From the NCBI GenBank assembly GCA_021734245.1, contig JAIPJH010000021.1, positions 1-34,817 on the forward strand: a stretch of 34,817 nucleotides of DNA. Reading direction: 5' to 3'. How positions within the stretch are numbered: the stretch's first letter is position 1; each line of letters starts with the position of its first letter. Below, piece after piece: positions 141 to 34,794 of this stretch. The position numbers were made by a program, and so were the translations under genes. The notes under the pieces were generated by a model. The model was not told the origin of the DNA. It saw nothing but the letters and a program-made list of their open reading frames with translations, and ran no database searches. This DNA comes from Candidatus Cloacimonadota bacterium (GTDB lineage: Bacteria > Cloacimonadota > Cloacimonadia > Cloacimonadales > TCS61).

Positions 141-321
141 TTAACTTTTCTATTTGACAACTTCTTCCAAATATTAAATTCTCGAAATTGTAATTTAGAT
201 TCTAAAGAATTAAGAAATAATTGTGTGGTTTAATATGATTCGGATTCATCAACACAACTTCGGATTACAGAATCTACTTTGGTTAAATTTAGATTTTTTC
301 AAACGTGCTAAAGGAAGATGT

Positions 322-2421
322 ATGAAAAAAAATTTATCTATATTATTTATTCTATTTATTATTAATTTATCCGCAACAATTATCAACATCCCTGCAGATC
401 AACCGACGATACAAGCTGGGATCGATGCAGCTGTAGATGCCGATACAGTATTGGTTCAACCTGGAACGTATATCGAAAATATTAATTACAATGGGAAGAA
501 TATTACTGTTGGATCACTTTTTATTACAACTCAGAATTCCAGTTATATCGATCAAACTATTATTGATGGAAGTCAGAACAATAGCGTTGTTATCTTTCAA
601 AACGATGAAGATTCGACAGCTGTTTTGTGCGGATTTACGATTACTAATGGAAACGCGAACGAAGGTGGTGGGGGAATTCTATGTTTTACAGCTAGCCCGA
701 CAATAAATAATCTAATAATAGTCGGCAATTCAGCTTTTGATGATGGAGGTGGTATCCATTTTTATCATTCAGATGCTGTAATATCTGATGTAATTATCGA
801 TAGTAATGATGCTATTCAAGGAGGAGGAATTCACTTTTGGAATTCGAGTTCAACAGTTAATAATTTACAAGTCATGAATAATGATGCTTCAGGACAAGGT
901 GGAGGAATTTTTATATCGCATAATTCAAATTTAGAGTTTATTAATGTAACGATAAATTCCAATGAGTCCTCAGATGAGGGTGGCGGTTTTTTTTGTGATG
1001 AATCTTGCATCTTAAATATCAATAACACTTTAATAGAAAATAATGAATCTGCTTGGAGCTCTGGTGGTGGAATATATTGCCAAGATAGTTATTTAAATAT
1101 CTCTAATTCAAATATTATTAATAATCATTCAGAATTATCTGGTGGCGGTATATCATTAATCTTTACGAATGCTATTTTATTGAATTTGGTGATAGAAAAC
1201 AACTATTCCTTGGATGAAAATGGTGGTGGGATAAGTTGCGATGAAGTATCAAATATGGTGTTGCAGAACTCCATTGTTAAAAATAATGAAGCTATATTTG
1301 GTGGGGGTTTAAGTTTATCAACTCCTGAGGTTTTGCTATATAATGTACTAATAAGTGAAAATCAGGCTTTAGAAAAAGGTGGTGCCATATATTGTTGGAG
1401 TTTTAATCCGATATTTAGAAATGTCACAATTAGTAATAATACGGCAAATGGAAATGCTGGTGGAATATTTTGTCATCATTCTAACCCTATATTAACTGAT
1501 TGTATTTTATGGAATAACTCTCCTCAAGAGGTATATTATTATATGTATAATTCTCCATCTTCCATCACAGTTTCTTACTCAAATATACAAGGTGGAGAAA
1601 CTGGAATAGTAACAAATAATAACGGAACTGTAAACTGGTTAGATGGCAATATCGATCAAGATCCAGCGTTTGATAGTGCATCAGAATTGCCTTATTCGTT
1701 AACCTTGTATTCACCATGCATTAATGCTGGAATTCCAGATACAACAGGTTTGAATTTACCAGATTTGGACTTAGCTGGAAATCCCAGAATTTTTGATGAT
1801 CGGATAGATATGGGAGCATACGAATTTCAATCTGAAGCATTCGATGCAGAATTTGAAGCAGATATAACTCAAGGTACAGCACCATTGGAGGTATGCTTCA
1901 CTGATCTTTCGAACGGTGATCCAATTTACTGGGGATGGGATTTTGATAATGATGGAATTCTGGATTCCGATTTAGAGAATCCCTCCTTTAACTATGAAGT
2001 TCCAGGTACCTATTCTGTTTCTTTATCTGTGAGTAACGGAACATATTCTGATACAGAAGTGAAGGTAGATTACATTACAGTTTCCGAAACTGGTGTGAAC
2101 GAAATGATTTCTTCAGATTACGCGCTTTCCAACTATCCAAATCCTTTCAATCCATCAACTACAATTAGCTTTTCTGTATCACAATCGCCCTCGATTGTTG
2201 AAATAGCAATCTTTAACTTAAAAGGACAGAAAATTAGAACTTTCGTTCCGAGCTCGTGTCATCCTGAGTCTGTCGAAGGACGAGGAACACCAAATAATTA
2301 TTCAGTCGTTTGGAACGGTAATGATGAGTCTGGAAATTCAGTCGGTTCAGGAATCTATTATTACAAATTGTTCGTGAATGGAAAAACTGAAGCTGTGAGG
2401 AAGTGCATGCTTCTCAAATAG
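322..2421 (+). CDS. Secreted right-handed beta-helix protein with PKD domain and C-terminal sorting domain
   Basis: The product is 699 residues. The start at 322 is preferred over in-frame upstream starts (from 223) because it follows AGGAAG and opens a signal peptide (MKKNLSILFILFIINLSA). After it comes a beta-helix-type start (IPADQPTIQAGIDAA...DTVLVQPGTY), then about a dozen turns marked by GGGI/GGGG motifs and asparagine-rich steps, typical of pectin-lyase-fold surface proteins. Around residues 510-590 sits a PKD domain (GDPIYWGWDFDNDG, PGTYSVSLSVSNG). The last 85 residues form the FlgD-Ig-like sorting module (NYPNPFNPSTTISF to KCMLLK). A repeat-derived segment (SCHPESVEG) interrupts this module. 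The substrate is unknown; probably exported and surface-exposed. It is 8 bases upstream of the next gene, a likely two-gene operon. Confidence 0.85.
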   Translation: MKKNLSILFILFIINLSATIINIPADQPTIQAGIDAAVDADTVLVQPGTYIENINYNGKNITVGSLFITTQNSSYIDQTIIDGSQNNSVVIFQNDEDSTAVLCGFTITNGNANEGGGGILCFTASPTINNLIIVGNSAFDDGGGIHFYHSDAVISDVIIDSNDAIQGGGIHFWNSSSTVNNLQVMNNDASGQGGGIFISHNSNLEFINVTINSNESSDEGGGFFCDESCILNINNTLIENNESAWSSGGGIYCQDSYLNISNSNIINNHSELSGGGISLIFTNAILLNLVIENNYSLDENGGGISCDEVSNMVLQNSIVKNNEAIFGGGLSLSTPEVLLYNVLISENQALEKGGAIYCWSFNPIFRNVTISNNTANGNAGGIFCHHSNPILTDCILWNNSPQEVYYYMYNSPSSITVSYSNIQGGETGIVTNNNGTVNWLDGNIDQDPAFDSASELPYSLTLYSPCINAGIPDTTGLNLPDLDLAGNPRIFDDRIDMGAYEFQSEAFDAEFEADITQGTAPLEVCFTDLSNGDPIYWGWDFDNDGILDSDLENPSFNYEVPGTYSVSLSVSNGTYSDTEVKVDYITVSETGVNEMISSDYALSNYPNPFNPSTTISFSVSQSPSIVEIAIFNLKGQKIRTFVPSSCHPESVEGRGTPNNYSVVWNGNDESGNSVGSGIYYYKLFVNGKTEAVRKCMLLK
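2258..2280 (+). repeat. GTCATCCTGAG...TCGAAGGA element inside a coding sequence
   Basis: A short copy of the repeat found intergenically at 33948, 34290 and 34749, reduced to its two conserved ends (GTCATCCTGAG and GTCGAAGGA). It is read in frame and encodes SCHPESVEG between two beta-strands of the sorting domain. The homologous domain at 22917-25535 lacks this segment. Confidence 0.75.
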
Positions 2422-2429
2422 GAGATGAG

Positions 2430-4565
2430 ATGAAAAAAATCCTGATATTTTTATTACTACATCTAATTGCTTGTTCTCTGTTTTCAGAGATTGAGTACAA
2501 TCTGGAATTTTTAATTAATGACATTAACCCCGAAGATCGTGTAAAAGAGGTTTGGTTAGATGATATGGATGAAAATGGTGAAGAAGAAATCTGGGTATTT
2601 TATTATCATCAAGTAACCAATGATTATATCGACTATTTCCGATTAGTTTCATTCGATTTTCAAGGTACTATATTATCATCTTTTACCAAATACTTTGAAC
2701 AGGATATTGTTTTTAAAGGATGTTCATTAGTAAAATCAGACGGGATAAATTACAGAATTGAATTATACCAGTACTATATTGACAATCCACCACATATGTT
2801 TCCGCTACCTGTTTGTAAAATTGAATTATATAATAACGAATCGAACATGTTAGTAGATACTTATCATTTAGAAATAAATGAACCTTTTTCTACTGTTGAG
2901 TTAACTGAATTCGATTGCAATTTTATCAGACACAAAAAAGTTGATAATAATGATTATGTATATTTAGGTCTATATCAAGGCTGGACAAGTGTTTATTGGC
3001 TCGATATGACTAGGCTTTATAGGTTTCAAATTTTGCAGAATTCAATTGCTTTAATAGAAGAAATTGAAGATGGTGGGAAAGATATTATATTTAATGAAAA
3101 TTATGATTATTTCTTTTCTGTTTATTCTAAAAATTGGCATAGTTATCCATATGGTGGAGGAAAAAACTCTTCAATCAATAAGTTGTCACTTTCAGTTCCA
3201 ACAACCGGTTACGCAATACAAAATGAACCAACTACAGATTTATTGTATGTTTTATCAAAGAACGATTTATTAATTTCCACTTATGGTTTAACTACTGCAA
3301 AAAGTTACTATTATAATGGCGGATACAATATTGAATTAAAAACTTATTTACCTGATTTTTCTGGAATTGTTTGGCAGGATACTATAGATGTTTTGTATTC
3401 TGCTCGTATTTTAAACTCAACATGTATAAATGTTGAGCAAATGTTTGATTGTATTCTTCTTTATTATAAATCTTCAAGCTCTACACCTAAAGTTGAATTA
3501 AGAAATAGAGTTAATGGTGAAGTATTACTCAATCAGGAAACAACTTTTGTGCCAGAAACTATAATAAGAAATCAGACTGGAGATTTGATTTTTATGGATC
3601 ATGGAGATGCATCAACTCAGATCGATGTATATAGTGTAAATATTGATTTCAATTTCCCTCCTTTTGTAATCTTTCCAATTAATGATATCGAAGTCGATGA
3701 AGATTTTTCCGATCCAATAGAGATCAATCTGGATTTTTATTTTGCTGATCCTGATGAAGACGAACTAAGTTATTCTTTTGAAATAGATAACGTTATTGTT
3801 GATCTGGCAATTGATGAAAATATTTTAACAATTACAGCATTAGAAAATTTAAATGGAAACGCAACTGTTACTATTACTGCTGATGATGGAATTAATCAAG
3901 CTTCAAGGGAAACATGCGAAACAACATTTGATCTTTTGATATCACCGGCAAACGATCCACCACAAATAATTAGCTATTTACCAGAAGATTTATCTTTTAC
4001 AATAACCGAAGAACAGGAAGTAAATTTCGAAGTAGAAGCTGAAGATGTCGATAGTGATGAAATTTATGTCTGGTTCGTAAATGGAGAAGATCAAAATAAT
4101 CCGGAAAATACTTTCTTGTATTATTTCTCTGAAAACGGAGATTACGAGATCCAATGTATTGTGAGCGATGATGAATTCGATGTAGAAAATACCTGGAATG
4201 TGACTGTGGAATTAACAGGTACAATTAATAATTCTGTTTTAAAAACTGAATTGATTGGAAACCACCCAAATCCATTCAATCCAAGAACAGAGATCAGATT
4301 TCAGATTTCAGAAGTCAGACAAATCGAAAATGCAGAAATATCTATTTATAATCTAAAAGGACAGAAGGTGATAACGCTGCCTGTCATCCTGAGTGATCCG
4401 GCACTGCCGGATTGTATCGAAGGATCAGGCACGCCAAATAGTTATTCAGTTATTTGGAACGGAAAAGACGAATCAGGGAAATCAGTAGGTTCTGGAATAT
4501 ACTATTACAATCTGAACGTGGATGGAAAAACAGAAGCTGTGAAAAAATGTTTACTTTTGAAATAA
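2430..4565 (+). CDS. Secreted protein with Ig/cadherin-like repeats and C-terminal sorting domain
   Basis: The product is 711 residues. The start at 2430 follows GGAG and opens a signal peptide (MKKILIFLLLHLIACSLFS). Residues up to about 410 form an unrecognised beta-rich, aromatic region that resembles FG-GAP/VCBS-type ectodomains in composition (DDMDENGEEEIWVFYY near the N-terminus), but no family can be named with certainty. Around 415-510 is a cadherin-like domain (FADPDEDELSYSFEI...TVTITADDGIN). Around 515-605 is a PKD/Ig-like domain (VEAEDVDSDEIYVWFVNG). The last 100 residues are the same sorting module as the preceding gene, ending KCLLLK, and are again interrupted by a repeat-derived insert. 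It is probably cotranscribed with the upstream secreted protein; a hairpin terminator follows directly. Confidence 0.8.
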   Translation: MKKILIFLLLHLIACSLFSEIEYNLEFLINDINPEDRVKEVWLDDMDENGEEEIWVFYYHQVTNDYIDYFRLVSFDFQGTILSSFTKYFEQDIVFKGCSLVKSDGINYRIELYQYYIDNPPHMFPLPVCKIELYNNESNMLVDTYHLEINEPFSTVELTEFDCNFIRHKKVDNNDYVYLGLYQGWTSVYWLDMTRLYRFQILQNSIALIEEIEDGGKDIIFNENYDYFFSVYSKNWHSYPYGGGKNSSINKLSLSVPTTGYAIQNEPTTDLLYVLSKNDLLISTYGLTTAKSYYYNGGYNIELKTYLPDFSGIVWQDTIDVLYSARILNSTCINVEQMFDCILLYYKSSSSTPKVELRNRVNGEVLLNQETTFVPETIIRNQTGDLIFMDHGDASTQIDVYSVNIDFNFPPFVIFPINDIEVDEDFSDPIEINLDFYFADPDEDELSYSFEIDNVIVDLAIDENILTITALENLNGNATVTITADDGINQASRETCETTFDLLISPANDPPQIISYLPEDLSFTITEEQEVNFEVEAEDVDSDEIYVWFVNGEDQNNPENTFLYYFSENGDYEIQCIVSDDEFDVENTWNVTVELTGTINNSVLKTELIGNHPNPFNPRTEIRFQISEVRQIENAEISIYNLKGQKVITLPVILSDPALPDCIEGSGTPNSYSVIWNGKDESGKSVGSGIYYYNLNVDGKTEAVKKCLLLK
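4383..4424 (+). repeat. GTCATCCTGAG...TATCGAAGGA element inside a coding sequence, with internal palindrome
   Basis: The same conserved ends as the intergenic copies, with a different centre: a perfect palindrome ATCCGGCACTGCCGGAT at 4396-4412. It is read in frame as VILSDPALPDCIEG within the sorting domain, at the same structural position as the copy at 2258. Confidence 0.75.
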
Positions 4566-8415: not shown

Positions 8416-8842
8416 CTCACTTCTCGAAGATCTCACTGTTGTCGCAATCAAGCTGATTGCGCTACGTTTCAACCACTCACTTCTCGAAGATCTCGGCGTA
8501 GCTGCAAACGGAGCCGGATCGTTTCTCATCGCTCATTTCTGTTGTCGCAATCAAGCTGATTGCGCTACGTTTCAACCACTCAATTCTCGAAGATCTCGGC
8601 GAAGCTGCAAACGGAGCCGGATCATTTCTCATCGCTCATTTCTGTTGCCGCAATCAAGCAGATTGCGCTACGTTTCAACCACTCAATTCTCGAAGATCTC
8701 GGCGAAGCTGCAAACGGAGCCGGATCATTTCTCATCGCTCATTTCTGTTGCCGCAATCAAGCTGATTGCGCTACGTTTCAACCACTCACTTCTCGAAGAT
8801 CTCGGCGTAGCTGCAAACGAAGCCGGATCATTTCTCATCGCT
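8416..8842. repeat. 103-bp tandem repeat, three full and two partial units
   Basis: Full units at 8476-8578, 8579-8681 and 8682-8784 have an exact 103-base period. A 60-base unit at 8416-8475 has lost 43 bases, and a 58-base partial unit lies at 8785-8842. Units differ by only a few substitutions. Each complete unit carries the palindrome CGCAATCAAGCTGATTGCG (one copy has AGCAG in the centre) and a CGAAGATCTCG segment. 103 is not a multiple of three, so the long open frames across the array shift frame between units and are not coding. The array fills the whole gap between the MBL-fold gene and the binding-protein gene. Confidence 0.97.
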
Positions 8843-8848
8843 GCTTTA

Positions 8849-22916: not shown

Positions 22917-25535
22917 TTATTTTATCAGGTTCATTTTTTTGGCAGAAACAACCTGATCTTTTACCAGAAGTCTGTACAGATAAACTCCGCTGGAAACAGA
23001 TTTTTCATTGCTGTCGGTTCCATTCCAGACGGTTGAATATGTGCCATTTCCATCAAATTGTGCAGAGTCTAATGACTTCACCTTTTGACCTTTTGCATTA
23101 TAGATTTCTATTTTTGCATATCGGGCATCCGAGCTTTGCAAACTGAACGAAATAGTTGTGTTGGGATTAAATGGATTTGGGTAATTCTGGTATAATTTTG
23201 CCATAGATGTTGGGATATTATTTTGCGGAGATGAAGTAATATCGTTCAAATCTAATTTATAAGAAGAGCAACCATAAGTTCCAATCGTGAGTGTGCGGCT
23301 GGGATTGTGTATATTAATATCGATTATCGGAACATTTGGTATTCCATCCGAAAGGCTCAACCACTCATCTCCCCCATTTTCTGTGTAGAAAATTCCGGCA
23401 TCCGAGCCGACAAAAATTCGACCGTAAACTTCGGGATCGAGAGCAATGCAGTTTATAGGCAGTTCAGGGAGATTGGAAGAAATGTCTATCCAGTCCTGGC
23501 CTAAATTTGTAGATTTGAAAACATGCGGCAGCGGTTCATCCCAACGGAATCCGGAAACTGTTACATAGATCGTATTTTCATCAAAAGAATCTCCGGCAAC
23601 TCGCGTTATCCAGCGATCCGGTAAACCGGCTGTTACATCTGTCCAGTTTTCTCCATTATCATTAGAAACATGAACATTGCCATCATCAGTTCCGGCAATT
23701 ACCATGTTTGGAAAAGTTGGATTAATGTTGATAGTTGTAACTGTGTGATAACCTGTTCCATCATCTCCGTCTGTGATATCTCCGCTCATATCTTCCCAGT
23801 AATATCCACCGTTTTCGGTTTTCCAGACGCGATACGTTCCAAAATAAAGAATTTCAGGATCGATCGGATGCATTGCCAGAGGAGAAGACCAGTTCGTTCT
23901 GTCGTTGTCCATCTGGTTGGCAATAAAATTGAAATTATAACCGCCATTTGTAGATTTATGAAGTTGCCCGTATTGGTATTCGGCATAAATTATATTGGAA
24001 TTTGTATGATCGACCCGACAGTAAAATCCATCTCCACCCAGAATTGCTTCCCAATCATCCAGAGCTCCGGTATTAGTTCGGATTGTATTATTGTCCTGTG
24101 TTCCACCGTAGATTCTCTCTGGAAGCTGATAATCAACATCGATAGCATAAAATTGAGTGAGAGGTAAATTGTTTATCTTCTCCCAATTATTACCATAATC
24201 ATAACTTGTATAAAGTCCGCCGTCATTACCTTCCACGATCCTGCCAGTCACTTCATCGATAACCATGGCATGATGATCAACATGAATTTCCCAGGTATTG
24301 CCATAATCGGCAATTACCTGCCAGTTATCACCGCCGTTTTCGGTGCGGCAAAGAGCAACTCCCAAAGCATAAACTCTATTTTCATCGGCTGGGTCAACTC
24401 GAATTTGACCAAAATACCAGCCGAAACTGGAATTCATGTCGTCAATGTTTCCATCATTAGTTTGCGTCCAGCTGGCTCCGGCATCTATAGTTTTAAATAT
24501 TCCCAGAAAGGAATATCCATAAACCGGTTGCTGATCGTAGAAAGCATACAAAACGTCAGGATTTGATTCGGCAATTGCCAGCCCGATCCTGCCGACATAT
24601 TCATTATCGGGAAGTCCGTTTGTAAGTTCTTCCCAGCTGTCGCCACCGTCAGTAGTTTTATAAATTCCCGAAGAATATCCACCGGAACGTCGATAATTTC
24701 TGCCCCGCATTCTTTCCCACATGCTGGCATACAATATATTTGGATATGTAGGATGCTGCACCAGATCGATAGCAGCTGTGGAATCGGTTACAAACAATTT
24801 ATTATCCCAGGTCAAGCCGCCATCATCGCTGCGATAAATTCCGCGTTCTGCGTTGGGACTGAACAAAGTTCCAGTAGCAGCTGCAAAAATACGCTGTGAA
24901 TCATTGTAATCTACAATTATCCTGCCGATATAAGCTGAATTTTCCAATCCGCTATGCTCCCAGCTGTCTCCACCATCGGTAGATTTATAAACTCCATTTC
25001 CTACAAAACTCTGGCTGGAGGAATTCGCTTCTCCGGTTCCGGCATAAATGATGTTCTCATTATCAGGATCGATTGCAATATCTCCAATTGATATCACAGG
25101 TGCATCGGTAAAAACATTCTGCCAGTTTGCTCCTTCATTAGTTGTTTTGTAAATTCCGCCAGACGCAGCTCCAATGTACCAGGTAGAAGGACTGTTTGGG
25201 TGAATCTCGATATCAGTGATTCGTCCACCGATATTGGTGGGACCGGAAAGTTCCCAGGAATAATCACGAGAATTATCAGCCTTTCGATGCATTTCCATTG
25301 CATCATCCAAAGCATTCAAATATGATGTTTGCTTTATGGTATGATAGGGATATGAACGCTGATAACCTGACCATTCATTGGGCAAAGCTTTGGGTTCTTT
25401 CTTGATCTTTCCGCCAAAAGGTTTTTCTATAAACTCGGGATGTATTATTTTCTTTCTTGTCTGCTTATGTGGAATAAAAACGATCATTGAAATTAGAATG
25501 ATCACTACTAGAATTGCAAAGAAATTTTTACTCAT
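22917..25535 (-). CDS. Secreted BNR/sortilin-type beta-propeller protein with sorting domain
   Basis: 872 residues. The N-terminal hydrophobic segment FFAILVVIILISMIVFIP (about 4-21) follows a short positive start; AGGAG is 5 bases before ATG. From about residue 90 the chain carries many BNR-type Asp-box and VPS10/sortilin-like repeats (GIYKTTNEGANW, GVYKSTDGGDSWE, GIYRSDDGGLTWD, GIFKTIDAGASW and more), forming one or two beta-propellers. The last 90 residues are the FlgD-Ig-like sorting module (YQNYPNPFNPNTTISF to MNLIK), without the repeat insert seen in the other two secreted proteins here. Such proteins are common in Cloacimonadota, Marinimicrobia and relatives; the ligand is unknown. It lies 9 bases downstream of coaE. 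Confidence 0.88.
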   Translation of the reverse strand: MSKNFFAILVVIILISMIVFIPHKQTRKKIIHPEFIEKPFGGKIKKEPKALPNEWSGYQRSYPYHTIKQTSYLNALDDAMEMHRKADNSRDYSWELSGPTNIGGRITDIEIHPNSPSTWYIGAASGGIYKTTNEGANWQNVFTDAPVISIGDIAIDPDNENIIYAGTGEANSSSQSFVGNGVYKSTDGGDSWEHSGLENSAYIGRIIVDYNDSQRIFAAATGTLFSPNAERGIYRSDDGGLTWDNKLFVTDSTAAIDLVQHPTYPNILYASMWERMRGRNYRRSGGYSSGIYKTTDGGDSWEELTNGLPDNEYVGRIGLAIAESNPDVLYAFYDQQPVYGYSFLGIFKTIDAGASWTQTNDGNIDDMNSSFGWYFGQIRVDPADENRVYALGVALCRTENGGDNWQVIADYGNTWEIHVDHHAMVIDEVTGRIVEGNDGGLYTSYDYGNNWEKINNLPLTQFYAIDVDYQLPERIYGGTQDNNTIRTNTGALDDWEAILGGDGFYCRVDHTNSNIIYAEYQYGQLHKSTNGGYNFNFIANQMDNDRTNWSSPLAMHPIDPEILYFGTYRVWKTENGGYYWEDMSGDITDGDDGTGYHTVTTININPTFPNMVIAGTDDGNVHVSNDNGENWTDVTAGLPDRWITRVAGDSFDENTIYVTVSGFRWDEPLPHVFKSTNLGQDWIDISSNLPELPINCIALDPEVYGRIFVGSDAGIFYTENGGDEWLSLSDGIPNVPIIDINIHNPSRTLTIGTYGCSSYKLDLNDITSSPQNNIPTSMAKLYQNYPNPFNPNTTISFSLQSSDARYAKIEIYNAKGQKVKSLDSAQFDGNGTYSTVWNGTDSNEKSVSSGVYLYRLLVKDQVVSAKKMNLIK

Positions 25536-28860: not shown

Positions 28861-29140
28861 TTAACAGCAGAGCGAATAAGCCACGAAGTAAAAGCCGCTA
28901 AGAAAATATCATAATCAGCGTCATTCTGAAGAGTCCTACGAAGGTTGTTCTTGCGTCTTGGTAAAACTACGCCGGCACAAGTTGGAAGAATCTCTTTGCT
29001 GGTACGAGAAGAAAAGCTGTGAGAACTTTCACGAGATACTTCGTAAGCAAAGCTATGAGTAACCTCAGCATGACGGCTTTTTTCGTCATTCTGACGTAGC
29101 TTGCACGCTGCTCTTGGGAAGAATCTCACTTAACCGCAGA
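28861..29140. repeat. Decayed GTCATTCTGA...GAAGAATCTC repeat cluster
   Basis: The 420-base gap 28795-29215 holds no supportable gene. It contains GTCATTCTGA at 28919 and 29086, GAAGAATCTC at 28985 and 29118, and an inverted pair ATGACG (29070-29075) / CGTCAT (29084-29089). These are the ends of a dispersed repeat related in design (GTCAT..CTGA end) to the elements at 33948-34794, in several degraded, inverted copies. Confidence 0.55.
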
Positions 29141-33947: not shown

Positions 33948-33993
33948 GTCATCCTGAGTAGGAATGAAACGACGTATCGAAGGATATGGCATG
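33948..33993 (+). repeat. GTCATCCTGAG...TCGAAGGATATGGCATG element, copy A
   Basis: 46 bases, starting 13 bases after the last stop codon of the window. The ends contain ATCCT and AGGAT that can pair. Nearly identical to copies at 34290 and 34749 (one base differs in the centre). Confidence 0.85.
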
Positions 33994-34056: not shown

Positions 34057-34335
34057 AGTTCCGCGTGGACTTGAGGATTTTTGTATTATCGTTTTTTGCC
34101 CTGAACTCCAGTCATGCCTGAAGTCCAGTCCAAATGAATTGCCCCGTGATTTATCGCGGGGATTGAATTGAGTAAAAACGAAATGGGCTTTAGCCCAGTT
34201 GGAGGGTTAAAACCCGAATTATTCTATTTTTTTTCTTTCTCTCCACGAGTTGAAACTCGTGGCAATACTGAACCATTTAAAAAAAATAAGTCATCCTGAG
34301 TAGGAGTGAAACGACGTATCGAAGGATATGGCATG
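34057..34335 (+). repeat. Large direct duplication, copy 1 (hairpin array plus GTCATCCTGAG element)
   Basis: Matches 34498-34794 along its length, offset 441 at the start. It contains, in order, a GGACTTGAGG/CCTGAAGTCC imperfect stem, hairpins 34142-34161 (CCCCGTGAT/ATCGCGGGG), 34184-34197 (TGGGCT/AGCCCA), 34204-34215 (GGGTT/AACCC) and 34243-34262 (CCACGAGTTGAAACTCGTGG), and the element at 34290-34335. No gene is visible anywhere in 33936-34817. Confidence 0.9.
34290..34335 (+). repeat. GTCATCCTGAG...TCGAAGGATATGGCATG element, copy B
   Basis: 46 bases, the end of duplication copy 1. The following stretch 34336-34497 holds a diverged inverted fragment (AGAATGACAG near 34410, CGTCAT near 34429) and nothing else recognisable. 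Confidence 0.85.
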
Positions 34336-34497
34336 TTCAAGAAGAAAATATTTAGCAAACGACGCTGTCACTTAAAATCGAAGAATCGATTTACTCCAAA
34401 TATTCTGCAGAATGACAGAAAAAATACGCCGTCATATTGAGGAACTCTCCCTGGCAAACGACGAAATATGAATCCGTCTATCCTTCCGCCTTCGCTA

Positions 34498-34794
34498 AGT
34501 TCCGCGTGGACTTGAGGATTTTTGTATTATCGTTTTTTGCCCTGAACTCCAGTCATGCCTGAAGTCCAGTCCAAATGAATTGCCCCGTGATTTATCGCGG
34601 GGATTGAATTGAGTAAAAAAAGAAATGAGCTTTAGCCCAATTGAGGGATTAAAACCCGAATTATTCTATTTTTTTTTTTCTCTCTCCACGAGTTGAAACT
34701 CGTGGCAACTCAGAAACTCGTGGTAATACTGAACCATTTAAAAAATAAGTCATCCTGAGTAGGAGTGAAACGACGTATCGAAGGATATGGCATG
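34498..34794 (+). repeat. Large direct duplication, copy 2
   Basis: Second copy of 34057-34335. It is 18 bases longer because the CCACGAGTT hairpin arm is partly re-copied (an additional AAACTCGTGG follows the hairpin). The TGGGCT stem has drifted to TGAGCT/AGCCCA while the others are kept. Confidence 0.9.
34749..34794 (+). repeat. GTCATCCTGAG...TCGAAGGATATGGCATG element, copy C
   Basis: 46 bases, identical to copy B, closing duplication copy 2 near the window edge. Confidence 0.85.

Follow-up and report, generated by a model that had tools for sequence, protein, structure and literature searches.

A short palindromic repeat is found in intergenic DNA as well as in frame within genes of a Candidatus Cloacimonadota bacterium (assembly GCA_021734245.1), and its coding copies are concentrated in a single loop, between strands beta4 and beta5, of the C-terminal sorting domains (CTDs) of secreted proteins. 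These sequences are probably REP/RPE-like, TGTC-tagged hairpin repeats, which persist in genes only at tolerant loops and in a stop-free frame and spread by repeated insertion together with recombination. An earlier note on the stretch of DNA analysed here (34,817 nt of contig JAIPJH010000021.1, hereafter the window) had described a dispersed palindromic repeat inserted in frame in the sorting domains of two secreted proteins, analogous to Rickettsia palindromic elements (RPEs). This description was supported, and the two window genes do carry the insert, but the phenomenon is larger than described, being genome-wide and family-wide at this one loop.

The five reported occurrences of GTCATCCTGAG in the window, at 2258, 4383, 33948, 34290 and 34749, are all exact, compared with 0.38 expected even when one mismatch is allowed. 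Copy 1 (2258..2280, plus strand, 23-nt core) lies in gene 1 (223..2421, plus strand, likely start ATG 322), which encodes a secreted beta-helix and PKD protein with a Por_Secre_tail/FlgD_ig-like CTD (2107..2418, plus strand). Copy 2 (4383..4424, plus strand, 42-nt core) lies in gene 2 (2403..4565, plus strand, likely start ATG 2430), encoding a secreted protein with an Ig-like domain and a CTD (4236..4562, plus strand). As had been noted, both coding copies occupy the same loop of the C-terminal module, reading SCHPESVEG (CHPESVEG within the core) and VILSDPALPDCIEG, respectively, and the loop of the third module (22917-25535), whose homologous CTD lacks the element (22920..23201, minus strand), is shorter (KVKSLDSAQFDGNGTYSTVWNG). 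The two copies have different 5' entry frames and the same 3' exit frame (GAA GGA). An imperfect longer inverted repeat surrounds copy 1 (2245..2288, plus strand; GTTCC at 2245-2249 and GGAAC at 2284-2288), and another longer inverted repeat surrounds copy 2 (4378..4431, plus strand; TGCCT at 4378-4382 and AGGCA at 4427-4431). The loop type of copy 1 recurs in two further CTDs of the genome (L037 and L181). The three noncoding copies (33948..33984, 34290..34326 and 34749..34785, all plus strand) each have a 37-nt core, that is, of 3n+1 length. Beside these intergenic copies, at 34057-34740, lies a duplicated segment of about 440 nt in which short palindromes (e.g. CACGAGTTGAAACTCGTG) abound. 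Elsewhere in the window, two further variant elements of a related longer repeat type, GTCATGCTGAGG.. (minus strand) and GTCATTCTGACG.. (plus strand), are about 10 nt apart at 29037-29123, and mechanical ORFs run through a tandem repeat of about 103 nt in four copies at 8436-8847. An Rfam search of the window returned four tRNAs only, and the element matched no known RNA family.

The element has the formula GTCATNCTGAG-variable centre-TCGAAGN'AT with cores of 23-44 nt, and the ends used for the exact genome count are GTCATCCTGAG..TCGAAGGA. A T directly 5' of GTC is present in 66 of 82 copies (17 of 21 once dereplicated), indicating that the element is directional with a 5' TGTC tag. AT occupies the first stem positions, and opposed GA dinucleotides break the helix after 5 bp. 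The third stem base covaries among copies as C-G, G-C, A-T or T-A pairs, which is evidence for preservation of the hairpin at the DNA or RNA level. A 3' tail resembling TATGGCATGATTAATA follows the core in about half of the noncoding copies. The earlier observation that the centres differ between copies was borne out, as they vary widely and many contain inner hairpins. When folded against shuffled sequences, many long centres beat most shuffles, whereas the 37-nt class does not. One copy had been called a perfect palindrome; this applies in part to the 42-nt copy, whose inner portion is a near-perfect hairpin (ATCCGGCA-C-TGCCGGAT, with an equally good fold in 1 of 300 shuffles), but its outer arms are imperfect.

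Among the coding copies, the reading frame is tied to the core length. All nine sense CTD copies with a 3n core, and in addition the purD copy, are read in frame 0 as GTC ATC CTG (VILS..EG), and all 11 sense coding copies with a 3n+2 core are read in frame 1 as xGT CAT CCT (CHPE..EG). Cores of 3n+1 length are absent from the sense coding copies, compared with 8 of 23 noncoding ones (Fisher P 0.0016; as CTD copies are related, these counts are not fully independent). The third forward frame is stopped by TGA within CTGA, the consensus TATGGCATGATTAATA-like tail is open solely in the frame read EGYGMINN, and only the two observed forward frames of the consensus element are open through the tail. 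Stop avoidance thus explains why the sense copies share one exit frame. The 3' context of the coding copies (GGCAC..AAATAGTTATTC) may itself be partly element tail. Judging from the open frames, the elements would be translated, giving for example loop peptides across VILSDPALPDCIEGSGTPNSYSVIWNG or FVPSSCHPESVEGR.

The module that carries the element was assigned by Pfam and NCBIfam profiles to the T9SS-type sorting domain/FlgD Ig-like domain, with window module 3 scoring above the PF18962 and TIGR04183 cut-offs and module 2 slightly under that of TIGR04183. In the AlphaFold2 model of the element-bearing gene 2 module (mean pLDDT 85.6, seven strands), strand 4 comprises residues 44-49, the element residues 50-63 and strand 5 residues 69-74; pLDDT falls below 50 at residues 58-63, and the other strands are confident. 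The insert is therefore predicted to form a disordered loop between beta4 and beta5. In the element-free relative L069, a short turn links these two strands. The best PDB match of the gene 2 CTD model is the PorU CTD. Since the functional motifs of CTDs have been placed in the beta3-beta4 loop and at the C-terminus (PMC11285876), an element between beta4 and beta5 would, by our own strand assignment, spare them. The module thus resembles the T9SS type A CTD (TIGR04183/PF18962/FlgD_ig) in its C-terminal Ig-like sandwich and differs from it, as described, in having its beta4-beta5 loop filled with dispersed open-frame repeats. In the beta2-beta3 loop of CTDs from this genome and its relatives, the recurrent phrases TAKDAKNAKIEIYN, TTNLHESARIEIYN and QISDFRQIENAEI also look like translated repeats.

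The genome contains at least 151 CTD modules, of which 149 distinct ones were extracted after two truncated duplicates had been removed by hand. A genome search with the conserved ends, proposed earlier together with a map of coding and intergenic copies and their phase, found 41 exact elements in 3.11 Mb (none with the reversed-pattern control). As the modules make up about 1.4% of the genome, 0.58 exact copies would be expected in CTDs; 17 were found there (14 sense, 3 antisense), all in the beta4-beta5 loop, and the forward ones use two reading frames. The corresponding binomial P (4e-21) treats the copies as independent, an assumption violated here, and it expresses concentration rather than a count of events. 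Nine of 18 looser elements also fall within CTD modules. Outside CTDs, only one exact copy is convincingly intragenic, in purD. When variants such as those with CTGTC or GAGTC arms are included, 34 of the 149 CTDs carry an element in the loop (27 forward, 5 forward plus reversed and 2 reversed only). Moreover, a second, unrelated palindromic repeat, TTCCCAAACGGGAGTTTAGGAACGAG (read FPNGSLGTS), has 6 of its 13 exact genome copies in the same CTD loop (L077, L079, L083, L091, L117 and L127). Per nucleotide, copies appear to be far denser in the CTD loop than in intergenic DNA, suggesting that random insertion at a tolerant site may be insufficient by itself, and that duplication, conversion or target preference may be required as well.

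These frequencies bear on whether the segment is simply a conserved loop native to the sorting domain and similar to the repeat by chance. According to the earlier note, this would be the case if nearly all homologous sorting domains in relatives carried the segment with conserved residues; as given above, 34 of 149 do in this genome, and a short native loop is common in orthologs. The presence of the segment across the family would fit a native loop. On the other hand, the loop is short and unrelated in most CTDs (exactly 18 residues in 87 of them), the element is missing in orthologs, the repeat DNA is also present in intergenic positions and in purD, and the residues are conserved no more than the DNA repeat dictates. 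Given the element frequency and the ortholog turnover described below, we rejected the native loop, which is extremely improbable.

To survey the phylum, we used a DNA pattern of KGQ plus an in-loop element, which was found in 21 of 125 genomes, including 20 of the 40 assigned to the family by family label, and in 7 genera in all; nearly all of the 21 pattern-positive genomes thus belong to the family, and the reversed control gave zero in every genome. Of the 30 fetched pattern loci, most proved on full reading to be sorting domains; the others comprise two noncoding loci, L236 (the sole pattern match of genome G103) and L242, a GTPase-like gene outside the family (L243), and a very short CTD-like frame (L225). 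Relatives found with gene 2 are mostly Candidatus Cloacimonadota, and a search of genome contigs for orthologs of this gene matched the C-terminal part only, for which reason the empty-site comparison was run on other CTD proteins. Three of these were traced across the family by ectodomain alone, and in all three the loops vary between orthologs, being native and short, filled with different elements or filled with other repeats. For the L029 protein, the loop contains KILPVILSDPENRDCIEGSGTTNSYSVVWNG in this genome, KDLSPSLCHPEFIEGRGGTKYSVTWNG in G033 and an element with the same outer arms and another hairpin tip (GTCATCCGGCAGCTGCCGGACGAGGGG) in G105, whereas the loops of G102 and G104 are of the short native type and that of G002 holds an unrelated repeat, TTCCCAAACGGG. 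This turnover excludes both a native loop and a single insertion followed by descent alone. The orthologs compared yielded no two loci that match exactly in their flanks and differ solely by the presence of the element, so that we infer insertion, as opposed to replacement or conversion of the loop.

The earlier note left a choice between independent insertion at a tolerant loop and one insertion followed by duplication of the module. In its fuller form, the latter posits one ancestral CTD insertion, subsequent duplication or shuffling of C-terminal modules, and later alteration of the centres by recombination or within-palindrome template switching. It accounts for the near-identical loop junctions of many CTDs (TGCCT, element, TCAGGCAC) and for the clustering of element-bearing modules on a loop-free CTD tree (20 changes versus 27-34 with shuffled labels, on short sequences), which suggests that duplication or conversion contributes. 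However, same-type loops are mostly found in modules that, in their DNA outside the loop, resemble each other no more than they resemble the rest. The two window modules are mutual nearest neighbours by the 3' part of their DNA (77%), yet their element types differ. These unlike elements, the two forward frames, the reversed copies and the differing elements of orthologs indicate that one insertion plus duplication is not the whole story. Unlike 5' junctions, and the filling of the same loop by the unrelated TTCCCAAACGGGAGTTTAGGAACGAG and other repeats, also argue against it. The purD gene behaves alike without any module duplication. Its in-frame element (VILSGVEG; L002, C1:36240-36263 of this genome, minus strand) lies in a gene identified by TIGR00877 (score 466 versus a cut-off of 288); the orthologs in G002, G105, G106, G011 and G023 carry different or diverged elements at this position, and several further orthologs have none there, showing that one tolerant loop can be filled recurrently in the absence of module duplication. 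A single ancestral insertion is accordingly improbable as a full account. Duplication or short-tract conversion probably lies behind the closely similar loops, and both insertion and duplication or conversion are needed.

Some copies of the element form the centre of a longer inverted repeat, and in same-genus genomes elements are nested within elements (e.g. GAGCCCTTCGACAAGCTCAGGATAGGCTCTGTCGAAGGA). Such nested or longer palindromes could reflect either insertion targeted to hairpins or the lengthening of palindromes through template switching. If the former, the repeat or its enzyme would prefer palindromic or hairpin DNA, and CTD loops already carrying a hairpin would attract more copies, with nesting of the elements, a process that could combine with the explanation we favour. 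In addition to the nested copies, flank complementarity is consistent with this possibility: among dereplicated copies, used as near-identical CTD junctions would otherwise inflate the result, the mean complementary run is 3.90 versus 2.62 (sd 0.22) in permuted flanks, and 5 copies have runs of at least 6 bp versus 0.5. Such flanks, however, occur in a minority of copies only, and AT-rich sequence makes up two of the five longest runs. Native loops have no obvious palindromes, and template-switching growth would leave an identical trace. We therefore regard target-directed insertion as rather unlikely.

A resident mover of the Y1/RAYT transposase type was considered and rejected, as the fetched flanks of all 39 Y1_Tnp loci (9 from this genome and 30 from relatives) were devoid of the element. 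This fits the published absence of a dedicated transposase for CGTC-type REPs (Di Nocera et al. 2013, PMC3733652). CGTC-tagged REPs are small directional hairpin repeats, some of them intragenic, with a tag that is often TGTC, a stem of 8-9 bp starting with AT, a loop of 4-5 nt and an unpaired CCA-like 3' tail (PMC3733652). The repeat studied here shares with them the directional hairpin, the accepted TGTC tag variant, the AT stem start and the intragenic copies, but its stem is broken by the opposed GA dinucleotides, its centres vary widely rather than forming a 4-5 nt loop, and in place of a CCA tail it often has TATGGCATGATTAATA. RPEs are short palindromic repeats of about 150 bp that lie between genes and in frame within unrelated genes, where they encode extra peptides, and CGTC-type RPE-4 and RPE-6 are known from R. 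conorii (PMC10969869, PMC3733652). The likeness, by description, is that the same repeat occurs between genes and in frame within them. In contrast to RPEs, the cores here are 23-44 nt, the hairpin centres and types vary between orthologs, and the coding copies, although hosted by a wide range of secreted proteins, sit essentially in one loop of the CTD, with purD as the one exception. Like the GTAG REPs of REPIN/RAYT systems, the repeat is a short imperfect palindrome that sometimes forms inverted pairs, as in the same-family genome G016, where REPIN-like head-to-head pairs about 25 nt apart occur in many places; unlike them, it is tagged with TGTC and is absent from the fetched Y1_Tnp flanks. 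Literature searches for the literal GTCATCCTGAG and for in-frame REP insertions in loops gave no match, and in open-licence papers, which offer weak evidence on this point, we met no account of such a repeat accumulating in a single loop of a multi-copy export tag throughout a family. In-frame palindromic repeats are thus already known from RPEs and intragenic REPs, and the one-loop concentration appears to be the variant.

In summary, we propose that a small non-autonomous REP-like hairpin repeat spreads through the genomes of one Cloacimonadota family, with insertion as the inferred route, tolerance as the reason for persistence and recombination as the means of spreading. Genic copies would persist only at sites that can accommodate additional residues and in frames that the element leaves free of stop codons. 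With about 150 occurrences in this genome, the beta4-beta5 CTD loop would satisfy both conditions and so become the main coding reservoir of the repeat, while repeated insertion or replacement, element nesting and shuffling of C-terminal modules or loops would make the loops differ even between orthologs. A bolder idea, to which we attach a low probability, is that the CTD loop is a preferred, self-reinforcing landing site, in which hairpins target hairpins and nest and loops are exchanged between paralogs and orthologs, so that the family diversifies the tag of its whole secretome or regulates it via coding hairpins near the mRNA 3' end. Ever since the Rickettsia elements were described, the question has been whether mobile palindromes within genes are just scars that proteins tolerate or can give rise to protein novelty. 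Here, a loop sampled about 150 times in one genome, with recurrence across a family, varied orthologs and a strict frame rule, makes insertion, tolerance and turnover countable. The results also carry a warning for annotation, as loops annotated with sequences such as SCHPELVEG or VILSGVEG consist of repeat DNA. As far as the sequences tell, DNA resembling junk seems to be made into protein routinely at a single tolerated position in this genome, and the findings suggest which portion of the T9SS tag is free to change without loss.
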